Shown here one piece after another: positions 47,443 to 54,105 of a DNA stretch of 64,000 bases. Source of the stretch: Thermoanaerobaculia bacterium (GTDB lineage Bacteria > Acidobacteriota > Thermoanaerobaculia > Multivoradales > J023); assembly GCA_030431255.1 (NCBI GenBank), contig JAUIJL010000010.1, positions 186,001-250,000 of the forward strand, in the 5' to 3' direction. The position numbers and the translations under genes are program-made. Positions within the stretch are counted from its first letter, which is position 1. The number at the start of each line of letters is the position of its first letter. Below the pieces are notes generated by a model. That model searched no databases. It was not told where the DNA came from and was given only the letters and a program-made list of their open reading frames with translations.

Positions 47443-47640
47443 ATGAAAAAGATCGACATCGCCCGTGCCCTGCGTGATGAGGACTACCGCTCCAGCTTGA
47501 GCGCCGAAGAGCAGGCTTCCCTGCCCTCTCCCGCCGGCAACGTCAATCTCGACGACAAGGCGCTGCTCAGCATCACCGGCGGTTGCGCCTGGACCACCCC
47601 CGCGACTTCCTGCGTTCCGCCGGGCACCTACTGCCCCTGA
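47443..47640 (+). CDS. lanA: Class II lanthipeptide precursor, mersacidin/lichenicidin-like leader
   Basis: 65-aa precursor. The leader (residues 1-47) has the mersacidin/lichenicidin-type pattern (ALRDEDYRSSLSAEEQASLP, then PAG) and ends with the double-glycine site SITGG. The 18-residue core is CAWTTPATSCVPPGTYCP: three Cys (48, 57, 64), four Thr and one Ser, so up to three thioether rings. AAAGGA lies seven bases before the ATG. A strong terminator separates it from lanM, which is the usual way to make precursor mRNA in excess. The core does not resemble a lantibiotic I know. Confidence 0.92.
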   Translation: MKKIDIARALRDEDYRSSLSAEEQASLPSPAGNVNLDDKALLSITGGCAWTTPATSCVPPGTYCP

Positions 47641-47680
47641 GGCATCGCTTTCCGAAAGGCCTCATCCCTGCGAGGCCGAA

Positions 47681-47710
47681 GAGGCGGGTCCAAAAGGCCC
47701 GCCTCTTTTT
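47681..47710 (+). terminator. Rho-independent terminator between lanA and lanM
   Basis: GAGGCGGG (47681-47688) pairs with CCCGCCTC (47698-47705) and is followed by TTTTT. Partial read-through would set a high lanA to lanM ratio. Confidence 0.9.
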
Positions 47711-47741
47711 ATGCCCGCCGTTTCGATTGCGGCATGGAAGA

Positions 47742-50700
47742 ATGGCCTCGAGCCGCGACCCCTTCTCTCCGATCACTCTCCGCCGAAAGCCGACAAGCTC
47801 CTTGACCTCCGCCACATCCCCATCCCGATCCAGCCCATTCCGATCCAACCCATTCCGATCCAGTGCCTGGTTCCGCGCCCTGACCCTCGAGGAACGAGCG
47901 ATCGGCGCAGACTTCGAATCTCCTGAGCTGCAATCGGATGCCCAGCGGGCGGAGCGGCGGCTGGACCGATACCGCCGAGAAACCGGCCTGCTCGACGAGG
48001 CGCTTTACCGCCGACGCTTGGATCAGCTCGGCGTGACCCAATCGACTCTCCAAGCACTCTTCGGCGAATCCGACGCCTCCCTCGCCGCACGGGGCCCTCG
48101 GCAGGGCTGGCTGGATCACCTCGAATCGATTTATCGTCCGTGGCTCGACCGGCGGTCGAGCTGGATCCCAACGCTCCGGTCCTCAAAGCTGCCGGGCTTG
48201 GACCTTTCCGATCTTCCCGACCGCGATTTCGCAGCCCTCTTTTTGCCCCTCTTGATCGACGCGGAGCGGCGGCTGGCGGACGGCTTGAGGCATTTGGCCG
48301 CGGTCCACAGCTCGGCCGACGCCGCTGACGGACCCGCCTGGGACCCTCCGGCACTCTCGGCCTCGCTTTTTCGTCCCCTACCTCGAGATGTGGTTTGGAT
48401 GACAGGTCGCACGGTGGTGTTGGAGCTGCATGCCGCCGCTTTGGGCGGCGAGCTGGGTGGGGAGTCTCCCGAGGCCCGTTTCGAGGAATTCATGGAGCAC
48501 CTCGGCTCCCCCCGCGGAGCCGTCTCATTCCTCGAGAGCTATCCCGTGCTCGCCCGCGCGGTGGTCGAACACATCGAGCTCTGGCTGCGCTTCTCCCTCG
48601 ACTTGGCACGCCATCTGATGGAGGACCGGCGGGTGATCGTCGACACCTTCTTCGCCGGGCACGACCCCGGCACGCCTTCCGAGGTGGAGGCGGGGCTCTC
48701 GGATCGCCACGACCGGGGTCGCACCGTGGCTCGGATCACCTTCGCCCCCGAGGCCGAGCCCGGCCGTCCTGAGCATCCCCCCCGGAAGCTGATCTACAAA
48801 CCCCGCTCCCTGGGCCTCGAACGGGCTTTCGTCGATCTGGCACAGGGGGTGGGTGTCCCTGCCCACGTGCCCCAATCCCTTGATCGAGGAGACCATGCCT
48901 ACATGCGCTTCGTAACCCCGGCTCCTTGCGACCGTCCGCAAGGCGTCGAGCGCTTCTATCGGCAGCAGGGCCGACATCTCGCCCTGCTCTACGCTTTCGA
49001 AGCCACGGACCTGCACTACGAAAACGTCATCGCCGAGGGCGAGACCCCCCAGCTCTTGGATTTGGAAACCCTCTTCCAGCCCCTGGTGCGCGAAGAAGCC
49101 TCGGCCGGCTCAACGCTGCCTCCCGCCAAGCCGGAGTCCCACACGGTGTTGCGCAGCGACTTCCTGCCGCGCAGGATCTGGCCCGAGGCCGGCAGCCCCG
49201 GCCTGGATTTGAGCGGTCTCGGTGCCGGAGCCGGCCAACGCACACCCATGACCCGCTTGGTGGATGCCGGCACGGACCGAGCACGCTACGAAGCCGCCTG
49301 GACCGAGATTCCCGCCGGCGCCAACCGACCCAGGATCGGCGACGAGGTCCCGCCCCTTTGGCCCTTCGAGGACGCCATCGACCAGGGTTTTCGGGAAGCC
49401 TACGGGCAATTGCTCGAGCACCATGAAGGACTGCTGGCGGACGACGGTCCCTTGAATCGTCTCAAGGAGCTGGAAATCCGCAGCTTGCTCCGGGGCACCG
49501 CGGTCTACACCCGCCTGCTGCACACCTCTTTTCATCCCGACCTGATGCGCGATGCCCTCGATCGGGATCGTCTTTTCGACAAGCTCTGGCTAGAAGCCAA
49601 GCAACGTCCCAGCCTCTGCCGTGCAATCCCCGCTGAACGCGAGGCCTTGCAACGTGGAGACGTGCCCCGCTTCACGACCCTCGTCGGCAGTGATCAAGTG
49701 ATCGATCAGGGGGTCCAAGCTGAAGTCCACGCTGGAACCCACTCTGGAACCCACACTGGAACCCACAGTGCGGGCCGCTTCTTTCAAAGCAGTGGGCTCG
49801 ACCAAGTGCGTCGACGGCTTCGCCGGCTCAGTCTCGAAGACCTGGAAAAGCAAAGCCGTCTGATCCGAGAGTCGATCCGCGCCGGCCGTCCCCAGGGCAC
49901 TTCACCTCCCCCGTTGCCGAGTCATAACCTCCAGATCCAGGAACCTGCTCCGCGCGGCGCCTTGGTCGCGGAAGCTCTTCGCTTGGCCCGCAAGCTCGAA
50001 GCGTCGATGATCGTCTGCGGCACCGACGAAGCCGATTCCCCGTCTACTGCCGACCTAGCCTGGTTTCACCTCGCCTTGGCCGGCCCCGGCGCCTGGGGTC
50101 TGGAGCCGGTCGGCCCGGATCTCTACAGCGGCCTGCCCGGCATCGCCCTCTTCTTCGCCCACGCCGGCGACCTGGCTCCCGAGCCGGAGACCTCCAAACA
50201 CTTGAAGCGCTTGGCCCGCGCAACCCTCGACACCGCTCGACGCCGCATCGCTCACAACCCACTCGCCCTGACCAAAGTCGGCGCCTTTGCCGGCTGGGGC
50301 GGCTGGATCTACACTCTGTGTCGGCTGGGCCGCCTGTGGCGCGACCCAAAGCTGATCGCCGAAGCGGAAGCCGCCGTCGACCTCCTCGGTGATCGCCTGC
50401 CTACGGATCGCGACTTCGACTTGACGGGCGGCGCGGCCGGCGCCGTGCTCGCCCTGCTCACCCTGCCCGAGCCCCATCCCGCGACCCGTCTTGAAACGCT
50501 CAGGGCCTGCGGCGAGCACTTGCTGGCGCACGCCGTCGAGATGCCGCTCGACGACGACGCATCGTCATTGGCTTGGCCGCCACCCCGAGGCGGGGGCGAT
50601 ATCCCTCTGACCGGTTTGGCCCATGGCTCCACTGGATTCGCGTGGGCCTTGACCCGGCTCGCCGACGTCACCGGCAATGAGCGCTTTCGGCAAGCGGCGG

Positions 50701-51233
50701 AGCGAGCCCTCGCCTACGAGCGAAGCACTCTCGACCCTGAAACCGGCCTCTGGCGCGACGTCCGCCTCGACCGTCAAGCCTCCGACGGCGAGCACCCCCA
50801 CTTCTTCGCCTGGTGTCATGGAGCGCCGGGCATCGCCCTCGGACGCCTCGTCCTGCTCAACGACGAAAACGATCCGCGATCACCCCACCGCTCCGAGCTC
50901 GAGATTGCCCTCAAGGCCACCGAGGATCAAGGCTTCGGCGGCGGCCACTGCCTGTGCCACGGGGATTGGGGCCACATCGACCTCCTGCTCGAAGCCGCCC
51001 GCCGGCTGGATCGACCGGAGCTCGGCGAGCGAGCCGCCATCTGGGCCCACCGACTCTTACGGCAAGGCCAGTCCACGGGCTGGCGTAGCGGCATCAGCTT
51101 CGACACCGAGCTGCCGGGGCTAATGACCGGCCTAGCCGGCATCGGCCTGGGTCTCCTGCGAGCCGCCTACCCCGACCGCGTGCCTTCAGTCCTCGCGTTG
51201 GACCTGCCGTCGACCTGCAGCAGCGAAAGCTGA
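47742..51233 (+). CDS. lanM: Class II lanthionine synthetase LanM
   Basis: 1163-aa bifunctional enzyme that dehydrates Ser/Thr and cyclises with Cys on LanA. The N-terminal DUF4135 dehydratase has LSDRHDRGRTVARITF, KLIYKPRSLGLERAF, ATDLHYENVIAEG and LLDLETLFQPLV. The C-terminal LanC-like cyclase carries the zinc ligands in WCHGAPGIALG (Cys1025) and CLCHGDWGH (Cys1072/His1073), and GLAHGSTGFAWAL. The ATG at 47742 follows GGAAG; a longer frame reaching into lanA is not used. Small tandem repeats occur at 47821-47865 (15 nt x3) and 49731-49766 (12 nt x3, encoding Gly-Thr-His units). No LanT protease-transporter or immunity gene is adjacent. Confidence 0.95.
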   Translation: MASSRDPFSPITLRRKPTSSLTSATSPSRSSPFRSNPFRSSAWFRALTLEERAIGADFESPELQSDAQRAERRLDRYRRETGLLDEALYRRRLDQLGVTQSTLQALFGESDASLAARGPRQGWLDHLESIYRPWLDRRSSWIPTLRSSKLPGLDLSDLPDRDFAALFLPLLIDAERRLADGLRHLAAVHSSADAADGPAWDPPALSASLFRPLPRDVVWMTGRTVVLELHAAALGGELGGESPEARFEEFMEHLGSPRGAVSFLESYPVLARAVVEHIELWLRFSLDLARHLMEDRRVIVDTFFAGHDPGTPSEVEAGLSDRHDRGRTVARITFAPEAEPGRPEHPPRKLIYKPRSLGLERAFVDLAQGVGVPAHVPQSLDRGDHAYMRFVTPAPCDRPQGVERFYRQQGRHLALLYAFEATDLHYENVIAEGETPQLLDLETLFQPLVREEASAGSTLPPAKPESHTVLRSDFLPRRIWPEAGSPGLDLSGLGAGAGQRTPMTRLVDAGTDRARYEAAWTEIPAGANRPRIGDEVPPLWPFEDAIDQGFREAYGQLLEHHEGLLADDGPLNRLKELEIRSLLRGTAVYTRLLHTSFHPDLMRDALDRDRLFDKLWLEAKQRPSLCRAIPAEREALQRGDVPRFTTLVGSDQVIDQGVQAEVHAGTHSGTHTGTHSAGRFFQSSGLDQVRRRLRRLSLEDLEKQSRLIRESIRAGRPQGTSPPPLPSHNLQIQEPAPRGALVAEALRLARKLEASMIVCGTDEADSPSTADLAWFHLALAGPGAWGLEPVGPDLYSGLPGIALFFAHAGDLAPEPETSKHLKRLARATLDTARRRIAHNPLALTKVGAFAGWGGWIYTLCRLGRLWRDPKLIAEAEAAVDLLGDRLPTDRDFDLTGGAAGAVLALLTLPEPHPATRLETLRACGEHLLAHAVEMPLDDDASSLAWPPPRGGGDIPLTGLAHGSTGFAWALTRLADVTGNERFRQAAERALAYERSTLDPETGLWRDVRLDRQASDGEHPHFFAWCHGAPGIALGRLVLLNDENDPRSPHRSELEIALKATEDQGFGGGHCLCHGDWGHIDLLLEAARRLDRPELGERAAIWAHRLLRQGQSTGWRSGISFDTELPGLMTGLAGIGLGLLRAAYPDRVPSVLALDLPSTCSSES

Positions 51234-51433: not shown

Positions 51434-52513
51434 ATGAGCCGTTCCACCACTGCTGCCGAGCCATCAATTACCCAAGAGCTTCTACAGCCGTTTGCTCTTA
51501 CCCCGAGCCTTGAGCTGAGCAATCGCATTTTGATGGCTCCCATGACCCGATCCATGGCTGACGACGACTTGGTGCCCACCGAGGACATGGCCGAGTACTA
51601 CGCGCGCCGGGCCGCTGCCGGCTTGATCATCACCGAAGCGACCATTGTGCGTGCAGACGGCCAGGGCTATCCCAACACACCGGGCATCTTCACCGACGCC
51701 CAGGTGGAAGGTTGGCGTCGGGTCACGGATCGGGTGCACCAGGAGGGCGGCAAGATCTTCCTCCAGATCTGGCACGTGGGCCGCGTTTCCCACCCCTCTT
51801 TCCTCGATGGCGCCGACCCCATCGCCCCTTCCGCGGTTCCCTTGGAAGGTCGCGTCAATCGCACCAAGGATCTCTACTACGGCACACCCCGCGCTCTTGA
51901 AACGGACGAAATCCCAGGGTTGGTACAAGCCTTCGCCGACGGCGCGGCCAACGCCATTCGGGCCGGCTTCGACGGCGTCGAGATCCACGGCGCCAACGGT
52001 TATTTGCTCGACCAATTCTTGCACTACCACACCAATCTGCGGGACGACGTCTACGGTGGCCCCGTGGGGAATCACCTGCGCTTTCCGTTGGAGGTGGTGG
52101 ACGCTGTGATTGCGGCCGTCGGCGCCGAAAGGACGGCGATCCGGCTCTCCCCGGGCGCTTACTTCCACATGTCGGGGGACCCCCGCGACGCGGAAGTCTT
52201 CAAAGCGCTGCTGAAACAACTCGAAGGCCGCCGTGTAGCCTACGTGCACGCGGGCATTTTCGACGACAGCCAAACCTTTGACGAGCTCGATGGGCAGACC
52301 GCGAGTGGGTTTCTGCGCACCAACTACAACGGCACCTTAGTGGGCTGTGGCAGCTATTCACCCGAAACAGGGGCTCGGGCGGTGCGGGACCAACGATTCG
52401 ACCTGCTGGCCATCGGCCGACCGTTCATTGCCAACGCCGATCTCGTCGAGCGGGTGAGGTCGGACGAGCCGCTTAAGGAGTACCACGCCGATATGCTCGA
52501 CACCTTGGAGTGA
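51434..52513 (+). CDS. Old Yellow Enzyme family alkene reductase
   Basis: A 359-aa FMN-dependent, NAD(P)H-using ene-reductase (NemA/OYE class) that reduces activated C=C bonds and nitro compounds. Family features are SNRILMAPMTRSMADDD, EATIVRADGQGYPNTPGIFT, FLQIWHVGRVSHPSF (FMN/substrate pocket), FDGVEIHGANGYLLDQFLHY, RLSPGAYFHM and the closing LAIGRPFIANADLVERV. AAGGA precedes the ATG by six bases. It follows lanM on the same strand after a 200-bp spacer with a hairpin, so it is probably a separate unit; a role in lanthipeptide tailoring (reduction of dehydroamino acids) is only a speculation from position. Confidence 0.93.
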   Translation: MSRSTTAAEPSITQELLQPFALTPSLELSNRILMAPMTRSMADDDLVPTEDMAEYYARRAAAGLIITEATIVRADGQGYPNTPGIFTDAQVEGWRRVTDRVHQEGGKIFLQIWHVGRVSHPSFLDGADPIAPSAVPLEGRVNRTKDLYYGTPRALETDEIPGLVQAFADGAANAIRAGFDGVEIHGANGYLLDQFLHYHTNLRDDVYGGPVGNHLRFPLEVVDAVIAAVGAERTAIRLSPGAYFHMSGDPRDAEVFKALLKQLEGRRVAYVHAGIFDDSQTFDELDGQTASGFLRTNYNGTLVGCGSYSPETGARAVRDQRFDLLAIGRPFIANADLVERVRSDEPLKEYHADMLDTLE

Positions 52514-52538: not shown

Positions 52539-53225
52539 TCAGCGACGGGATTTCAACACGATCCGTCGCGCCGTCGGTGACAATCCAAGGGGCTCGAGAT
52601 CGTCCTCGGTCAAGCCTTGGGTGCGCGCTCCGCCTAGGTAGCCGTTGAGCCGGGCCGCGGCGGTGGAGTCGACGAAATCCCGAAATTCCGGATAGGGAGC
52701 CCGCAGCTCCGCCATCAGCTCGCCGTGGCGCTGGAGGTAGTATTTTTGATGGTAGTCCTCGGCGCGATAGAAGGAGTCGGCGGGTAGGATCTCGACGAAG
52801 ATTTCAGCGCCTACGGACTCCGAAACCCGACGATGGGTCTCCTTTGCTTGCAGCAGCTGGGACTCATCGGCATAGAAAATAGCCGACATGTACTGCCGCT
52901 TCCACGCCGGACGGGTGGGTCGGCGGGCGGCCCAGAACAGCTCCAGCAGGTCTGCGTAGGTGATCTGGCTCGGATCGTAGTCGATCTGCACCGCCTCGGC
53001 GTGGTCGCCGATCTCGTGGTAGGTGGGCCGCAGGCTGGTGCCACCCGCATATCCCACCCGCGTCCTAAACACCGAGCCGAGACTCCCGAACCGGGAGTCG
53101 GGTCCCCAGAATCAACCCAAGGCGAAAGTCGCCGTCTCCAGGGTTTCCGGCACTTGAAGATCGATGGCGGGGGGTGACGCCGAGGCACGGTCGTGGCCGG
53201 ACTCTCGGGGCAAGATGGCTTTCAT
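52539..53225 (-). CDS. msrA: Peptide-methionine (S)-S-oxide reductase MsrA, selenocysteine-containing
   Basis: 228-aa repair enzyme reducing methionine-S-sulfoxide in proteins. The frame from ATG 53225 (AAGGAG seven bases upstream) runs ETATFALG, in-frame TGA at codon 38 (53114-53112), then FWGPDSRFG, RTRVGYAGG, GDHAEAVQIDYDP and EDYHQKYYLQRHG. MsrA has GCFWG here, so TGA replaces the catalytic Cys codon. Twelve bases after the TGA a perfect 8-bp hairpin with a GTT loop fits the bacterial SECIS model. I therefore read the TGA as selenocysteine. Automatic calling would start at GTG 53072 and lose the active site. A nonsense mutation is the alternative, less likely given the hairpin and intact flanks. 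No sel genes lie in this window. Confidence 0.85.
53081..53114 (-). promoter_or_regulatory. Candidate bacterial SECIS element in msrA
   Basis: On the minus strand, UGA at 53114-53112 is followed by 12 bases, then GACTCCCG (53099-53092), loop GTT (53091-53089) and CGGGAGTC (53088-53081). The distance from UGA to the apical loop is 20 nt and the loop begins with G, both within the published bSECIS limits. Confidence 0.75.
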
Positions 53226-53349
53226 GGGAGGCTCCTTCGCTCGGGGTCGACTGAGTTGGCTGACGTCGAGATCAACAAATTCCGCCGTCCCTTCATTCCC
53301 CGGCTCTCGAGGCGCAGGGGTCTAGCCCAGAATCCCTTACAATTCCGAC

Positions 53350-54105
53350 GTGAATTCAAAGATCCCAACCCTCTTGATCACCGGCGGCGGCCGTGGCATC
53401 GGCGCGGCCACCGCTCGGATGGCCGGCCAACGCGGATTTCAGGTCTGCGTCAACTATGTGCGGGACGCGGGCTCCGCCCGAGAAGTCGTCCAGGATATCG
53501 AAGCCGCAGGCGCCAAGGCGATCGCCGTGCAGGCCGATGTGGCTGACGAGGACGCCGTGCTCCGACTCTTCGAGACCGTGGACCGCGAGCTCGGTCCCTT
53601 GACGGCTCTGGTCAACAACGCCGGCATCTTGGAAACCCAAATGCGGGTGGAGGAGATGGGGGCCGACCGTCTCGCGCGCATCTTCAACACCAATGTGGTC
53701 GGCAGCATGCTCTGCGCCCGGGAAGCGATTCGTCGCATGTCCCAACGTCACGGCGGAGTCGGCGGCGTGATCGTCAACGTGTCGTCGGCAGCGGCTCGCT
53801 TGGGCTCACCCGGCGAATACGTGGACTATGCCGCGTCGAAGGGAGCGATCGATACCTTGACCCTCGGCCTAGCCCAGGAAGTCGCCCGCGACGGTATTCG
53901 AGTGGCCGGGGTTCGACCCGGATTCATCGATACCGACATCCACGGCGACGGCGGCGAGCCGGATCGGCTCGAGCGGGTCAAACATGCCATCCCCATGGGT
54001 CGGGGAGGCCGACCCGAGGAGGTCGCCCAGGCCATCCTTTGGCTTTTGTCCGACGAGGCTTCTTATGCCACCGGCAGCATATTGGACGTGGCCGGCGGGC
54101 GATGA
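53350..54105 (+). CDS. SDR-family oxidoreductase (FabG-like)
   Basis: 251-aa NAD(P)-dependent reductase. Cofactor motif TGGGRGIGAATARMA, NNAGI, active-site Ser in VNVSSAAARLG, YVDYAASKGAIDT (YxxxK) and the closing YATGSILDVAGGR typical of FabG/glucose-dehydrogenase-like SDRs. The start is GTG without a clear ribosome site; the signature glycine motif begins only eight residues in, so the true start cannot be much later. It diverges from msrA across 124 bp. Substrate unknown. Confidence 0.88.
   Translation: MNSKIPTLLITGGGRGIGAATARMAGQRGFQVCVNYVRDAGSAREVVQDIEAAGAKAIAVQADVADEDAVLRLFETVDRELGPLTALVNNAGILETQMRVEEMGADRLARIFNTNVVGSMLCAREAIRRMSQRHGGVGGVIVNVSSAAARLGSPGEYVDYAASKGAIDTLTLGLAQEVARDGIRVAGVRPGFIDTDIHGDGGEPDRLERVKHAIPMGRGGRPEEVAQAILWLLSDEASYATGSILDVAGGR

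Follow-up and report, generated by a model that had tools for sequence, protein, structure and literature searches.

The msrA locus and its in-frame TGA

The window, by which we mean the whole stretch of 64,000 nucleotides that was analysed, corresponds to positions 186001-250000 of contig C29 in a Thermoanaerobaculia genome (G000 in our numbering; 10,192,622 bases, 98.83% complete). Its minus strand carries a gene for a methionine-S-sulfoxide reductase (MsrA) with the following features:

52539..53225, minus strand: msrA, predicted selenoprotein methionine-S-sulfoxide reductase of 228 aa with selenocysteine (Sec) at residue 38 and no Cys (reading frame, TIGR00401, phmmer, alignment)
53112..53114, minus strand: TGA codon predicted to be read as Sec, at the catalytic position within GUFWG (TGA there in 77 of the best 80 of 294 relatives)
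53232..53237, minus strand: ribosome-binding site AAGGAG, spaced 6 nt from the ATG that follows (sequence)
53081..53099, minus strand: bSECIS-type hairpin with an 8-bp stem and a GTT loop, the loop 20 nt after the TGA (codon conservation across 84 TGA loci)
52542..52727, minus strand: helical domain at the C-terminus, spanning roughly residues 167-228 and modelled as five helices (AlphaFold model, Foldseek)

The frame runs from the ATG at 53225-53223 to a terminal TGA at 52541-52539, and its single internal TGA is codon 38 (53114-53112), in the context ALG-U-FWGPDS. Cys codons are absent from the frame. The product scores above the cut-offs of TIGR00401 (114.7 bits, cut-off 108.1) and PF01625 (130.5 bits, cut-off 23.7), and reaches 34.1 bits with NF041383, far under its cut-off of 275. 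What the original prediction had described, a frame from ATG 53225 with a strong AAGGAG and a single TGA precisely where the catalytic Cys is expected, is borne out by the sequence, and the frame from 53225 to 52539 reads, as it had stated, as a whole MsrA on both sides of the TGA. Its warning that standard calling would truncate the gene is right for simple gene calling, since the mechanical ORF list offers in this frame only 52539-53072 (GTG start, 177 aa), in which the active site is missing.

That ORF, open over its 177 codons from 53072, and the presence of two further stop-free MsrA genes in the same genome could be taken to mean that the TGA is a true stop, either in a pseudogene or ahead of a shorter gene starting at GTG 53072. 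However, the shorter product would miss the GUFWG active site, the relatives conserve the protein sequence surrounding the TGA and immediately before it, a ribosome-binding site stands at 53237-53232 and the genome possesses the Sec machinery, all of which makes a genuine stop extremely improbable.

By ORF reading, the product of the convergent neighbour (51434-52513, plus strand) looks like a flavin oxidoreductase and that of the divergent neighbour (53350-54105, plus strand) looks like a short-chain dehydrogenase. Also on the plus strand, a 1216-aa ORF at 47583-51233 looks, judging from its residues, like a LanM-type lanthipeptide synthetase.

TGA and Cys codons among relatives

Public genomes were scanned with six peptide patterns that all avoid the Sec site, and the best 80 of 294 relatives were kept. 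Compared for Cys versus TGA, as the original prediction had proposed, these have TGA at the Sec position in 77 cases and Cys in 3, namely TGT in the two Microcoleus loci (L093, L128) and TGC in one from Syntrophobacterales (L070); because the 80 are the most similar relatives, this share does not apply to MsrA at large. Each of the 77 TGA relatives comes from another species' genome. The same codon is TGA in three genomes of the window's own family (G003, G004, G005), whose proteins are 53-58% identical; the G004 locus (L025), identical at 100% over 3651 bases, is the same record as the relative L058 (JAJCXO010000276.1). The set of 84 Sec members, or TGA loci, used below consists of the 77 named relatives plus L023-L029, L025 again being the L058 record.

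A TGA is one base away from the Cys codons, and MsrA generally has Cys at the catalytic place, including the products of the two stop-free genes of this genome (L020, L021), which would fit an ordinary Cys-MsrA gene with a sequencing or assembly error. Since the same-codon TGA recurs across other assemblies, both in the 77 relatives and in G003, G004 and G005, a misread TGC or TGT at 53112-53114, the error that the original prediction had singled out as fatal to it, is refuted in practice; the strict retention of a GGG codon in the downstream hairpin at all 84 TGA loci (see below) speaks against it as well, and we give it practically no weight. An in-frame TGA at the position of a redox-active Cys, with Cys homologues in L070, L093, L128, L020 and L021, is what is found here. 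The recurrence of TGA in relatives, together with the sel genes of the same genome, supports the original claim that msrA is a selenoprotein gene.

Within the order, some MsrA match at E<=0.001 is present in 65 of the 72 genomes, and MsrA with TGA at the catalytic codon in 7 of the 72 (G000, G002-G006 and G042), a count in which matches without an extracted locus were judged by the presence of an in-frame stop alone. G019, which had also been listed with TGA, was rejected as a further TGA genome: its catalytic codon is TGC (L031). At E<=1e-28, 25 of the 148 genomes of the class were matched, including the same seven TGA genomes, and the loci added by this class-wide search (L150-L159) contain no stops.

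By tree labels the named Sec rows span nine phyla (Acidobacteriota, Bacillota, Calditrichota, Chloroflexota, Myxococcota, Planctomycetota, Spirochaetota, Synergistota and Thermodesulfobacteriota), a few rows being without a phylum label. On a tree with 99 rows (86 Sec), the Sec label needs at least three changes; no deep branching is drawn from this tree because the branch of L029 is very long, 20 forks stay open and the bootstrap had not settled. Sec-MsrA had been described in the original prediction as known but rare. It is indeed known, but "rare" understates its distribution, because the nearest relatives within this MsrA subtype have Sec as a rule (77 of the best 80 of 294) and the named Sec rows extend over nine phyla.

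Downstream of the Sec site, Cys is absent from 55 of the 84 Sec members, occurs once in 18, twice in 8 and three times in 3; the three Cys members L070, L093 and L128 carry 2 or 3 Cys after the catalytic site. A Cys-containing C-terminal tail such as CPVP is seen in 7 of 37 aligned sequences (L061, L062, L072, L090, L099, L117 and L121) and could act as a source of a resolving Cys; the window MsrA has no such tail.

A hairpin kept at synonymous sites

On the minus strand the TGA is followed by a 12-nt spacer (53111-53100), a stem formed by 53099-53092 and 53088-53081 and a GTT loop (53091-53089), and the energy of the folded stretch is -18.5 kcal/mol. The excerpted text of PMC13188914 gives as criteria for a bacterial SECIS element (bSECIS) a loop of 3-9 nt, a stem of 4-16 bp, a G in the first two loop positions, a distance of 16-37 nt from the UGA and an energy <= -7.5. 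The window hairpin, with a 3-nt loop starting in G, a stem of 8 bp, 20 nt to the UGA and an energy of -18.5, lies within all printed ranges and is like that model on every one of these points, with no difference. The geometry originally reported (8 bp, G loop, 12-base spacer, 20 nt) is also correct.

To what degree such a hairpin is meaningful in a single gene is another matter. Our screening script was slightly looser than the printed criteria (3-14 nt in the loop, a stem with 4 or more pairs, a G as first or second loop base, a distance of 16-37 nt and no bound on energy), and 27% of 1000 synonymous recodings of the window also pass it. The energy of the window hairpin does not exceed that of the recodings (z -0.57, p 0.273); as single-sequence evidence hairpin energy was therefore rejected, and only the comparative codon test counts. 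The original statement that the bSECIS criteria apply to this hairpin thus holds, but the hairpin is not convincing alone (p=0.27) and becomes so only across the 84 TGA loci. Nor does energy separate TGA rows (n=84) from Cys rows (n=5): the mean z is -0.70 in the former versus -1.16 in the latter, with p<=0.05 in 11/84 and 2/5, respectively.

The comparison of codons is more informative. The criteria of the script are passed by 71 of the 84 TGA loci versus 28.6 expected, and by none of the five Cys rows versus 1.8 expected. The Gly codon of the stem core is GGG in 84/84 TGA loci (15.0 expected), the loop G is present in 82/84 (39.5 expected) and a Ser/Ala codon has C as its third base in 83/83 (36.1 expected); at the tenth codon, the third base of Ser/Ala is T in 27/38 (6.2 expected). 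The TGA loci show no bias at the Asp codon (45/82 versus 41.1 expected) or at the Gly codon of the spacer (14/79 versus 18.3 expected). The 84 loci correspond to 82 distinct 40-mers, in which 84% of the stem cells are paired; the figure is 75% for 500 shuffles, never above 78%, and 21-56% when the positions are slid. Of the 82 distinct rows, 35 have T-A and another 35 have G-C at the stem pair TGA+16/+28, and the two outer pairs are poorly kept (62% and 48%). Judged from these codon choices, the hairpin is selected at synonymous sites across the TGA loci.

Two further observations concern this region. The Phe codon right after the TGA (53109-53111 in the window) is TTC in 68/84 loci versus 47.4 expected, a preference that lies outside the hairpin and is unexplained by it, and that perhaps reflects a context effect on UGA decoding. 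The TGC member L070 (559-1290, plus strand) keeps the hairpin core codons GCC CGG TTC GGG after its active site and is perhaps a recent Sec-to-Cys reversion; its minimum-energy fold differs from the hairpin.

Selenocysteine machinery of the genome

The Sec machinery that the original prediction took to be implied is found in full in the same genome, each component over its cut-off: tRNA-Sec (RF01852, 72.7 bits, over the Rfam cut-off; called as SeC with anticodon tca by ARAGORN), SelB (358.7 bits), SelA (458.7 bits) and SelD (359.6 bits), so that the lack of sel genes, named at the outset as an argument against a selenoprotein, did not materialise. Seven further RF01852 matches are all under the cut-off. 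The selA gene is over the cut-off in 63 of the 72 genomes of the order and matched at E<=0.001 in 67 of them; the Sec trait is therefore general in the order.

The SelD match itself includes one TGA, in the context TCGUAAK, which we take to be the catalytic place of SelD. The sole match to the formate dehydrogenase alpha subunit (FdhA) over the cut-off also contains one TGA; this locus (L164, C15:800826-802841, plus strand) is a further probable selenoprotein gene. Because SelD and FdhA matches also hold a TGA, the genome likely has three selenoprotein genes (MsrA, SelD and FdhA). An acidobacterium with three known selenoprotein genes is listed in the excerpts of PMC12013277.

One might still suppose that ribosomes read past the UGA by inserting Cys or Trp in place of Sec, independently of the Sec machinery. 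The genome has a Sec pathway, however, and plain misreading would not need a hairpin selected at synonymous sites; such a readthrough is accordingly most improbable, and decoding as Sec is the reading retained in what follows.

Likeness to the Clostridium oremlandii enzyme

With phmmer, residues 27-210 align without gaps to the MsrA of C. oremlandii (Alkaliphilus) at E 3.3e-57. An AlphaFold model built from 37 of 89 collected rows has a mean pLDDT of 94 and a pTM of 0.88, and its best seven Foldseek matches in the PDB are all oremlandii MsrA chains (E 9.9e-22 to 1.4e-20, identity 44-46%), compared with 7e-13 for the best match to another MsrA kind, the E. coli enzyme. One PDB entry, 7c13, is titled as a glutaredoxin entry; its chain A is named MsrA in the phmmer result. 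The match to 4lwj covers 201 columns.

Like the C. oremlandii enzyme in 4lwj, the window MsrA has Sec at the catalytic place within GUFWG, no Cys and about equal length. With an offset of 22, Sec16, Trp18, Tyr47, Glu55 and Tyr90 of the clostridial protein correspond to residues 38, 40, 69, 77 and 112, so that Glu55 and Tyr47/Tyr90 have counterparts here; across 37 aligned sequences there is no variation at the first four (apart from Sec or Cys at 38), and residue 112 is at least 90% conserved. The C-terminal helical domain is likewise shared: the predicted helices 168-175, 181-185, 188-197, 207-213 and 217-225 fit, in the model, the helical domain that the oremlandii MsrA possesses according to the part of PMC4333827 available. 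The hosts differ, an Acidobacteriota genome in one case and an anaerobic clostridium in the other. One catalytic Sec and no resolving Cys is the arrangement of the 1-Cys type, and the window gene almost certainly encodes a Sec enzyme of this known type, that of C. oremlandii, with UGA 38 decoded via SelB and tRNA-Sec with the help of the hairpin. In the excerpts of PMC4333827 and PMC4479559, the Sec form of the oremlandii MsrA is 20-fold more active than the Cys form.

Other MsrA forms in the genome and its relatives

The same genome also has the two Cys-MsrA genes without stops (L020, L021), and because of these two ordinary genes the window msrA is not strictly needed. Ordinary Cys-MsrA, of E. 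coli type, shares the catalytic domain fold and the chemistry, but has Cys in place of Sec, and in L020 and L021 three further Cys follow the catalytic one; the excerpted PMC4333827 describes this kind as lacking the C-terminal helical domain. NF041383 yields four matches in the genome, none at the cut-off. A partial match under the cut-off is the short MsrA-like protein L146 (C35:405709-406152, minus strand), in which YCYWTGEATLG replaces GCFWG and which is possibly a non-catalytic relative of MsrA.

L028:1333-2220 and L027:1315-1998 (both minus strand, the latter from G002), found in two genomes of which one belongs to the window's genus and the other to its family, encode a divergent Sec-MsrA that is 37% identical, has TGA as its catalytic codon and is accompanied by a bSECIS-like hairpin. 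Its N-terminus looks hydrophobic on reading the sequence, as in an exported or membrane-anchored protein, and a stretch with IPPGP stands where the RQYM loop is expected. The two form one clade on a long branch. A search for this type in 396 genomes drawn from the phylum (E<=1e-30) matched four, namely L028's own genome, the window's genome, G187 and G210, the proteins of the last two being of the ordinary oremlandii type, and revealed no wider spread.

A proposed mechanism and its reductant

Taken together, these elements suggest the following scheme. The hairpin that follows UGA 38 would direct SelB and tRNA-Sec to insert Sec there, with Sec-tRNA made by SelA using selenophosphate from SelD. 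The Sec selenolate would then reduce protein methionine-S-sulfoxide, and Glu77, the equivalent of Glu55 in the oremlandii enzyme, would protonate the sulfoxide. Because a resolving Cys is absent, a glutaredoxin, in this genome probably of the Cys kind, would most likely restore the oxidised Sec.

A selenoprotein glutaredoxin is reportedly the reductant of the C. oremlandii MsrA, going by the title of a paper. C. oremlandii would in this respect differ from the window's genome, where a search for a Sec-glutaredoxin with PF00462 gave three matches, none with a stop inside, with the motifs CPDC (L143), CGYC (L144) and CGDC (L145); because no match has an in-frame stop, the partner is probably of the Cys type. 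These Cys-type glutaredoxins are, from their sequences, candidate reductants of the window MsrA. The frame of L145 appears to continue into thioredoxin-reductase-like sequence. That the reductant of the oremlandii MsrA is glutaredoxin and not thioredoxin is stated in the excerpts of PMC4333827 and PMC4479559.

A wider reading, which we regard as having an even chance of being right, is that the oremlandii-type MsrA is primarily a Sec lineage extending over at least nine phyla, that its few Cys members are later reversions carrying other Cys, and that the enzyme of the window's genome works with an ordinary Cys partner and no Sec-glutaredoxin.

Significance

Both the enzyme type and its mechanism are already known from C. 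oremlandii, and the window gene is another member. Sec-MsrA with the GUFWG motif is listed among prokaryotic selenoproteins in the excerpted part of PMC13188914, and the string "Acidobacteri" has 0 occurrences in the text of that source. No paper joining selenoprotein, MsrA and Acidobacteriota was found; the older name Acidobacteria, in a looser match, does return papers, and we make no claim to a first report of an acidobacterial Sec-MsrA. The finding adds a Sec-MsrA in a large Acidobacteriota genome and makes plain that the active site of the enzyme is lost when ORFs are called in a simple way. Moreover, the 84 TGA loci with their strictly kept hairpin core form a useful test set for selenoprotein gene finders.
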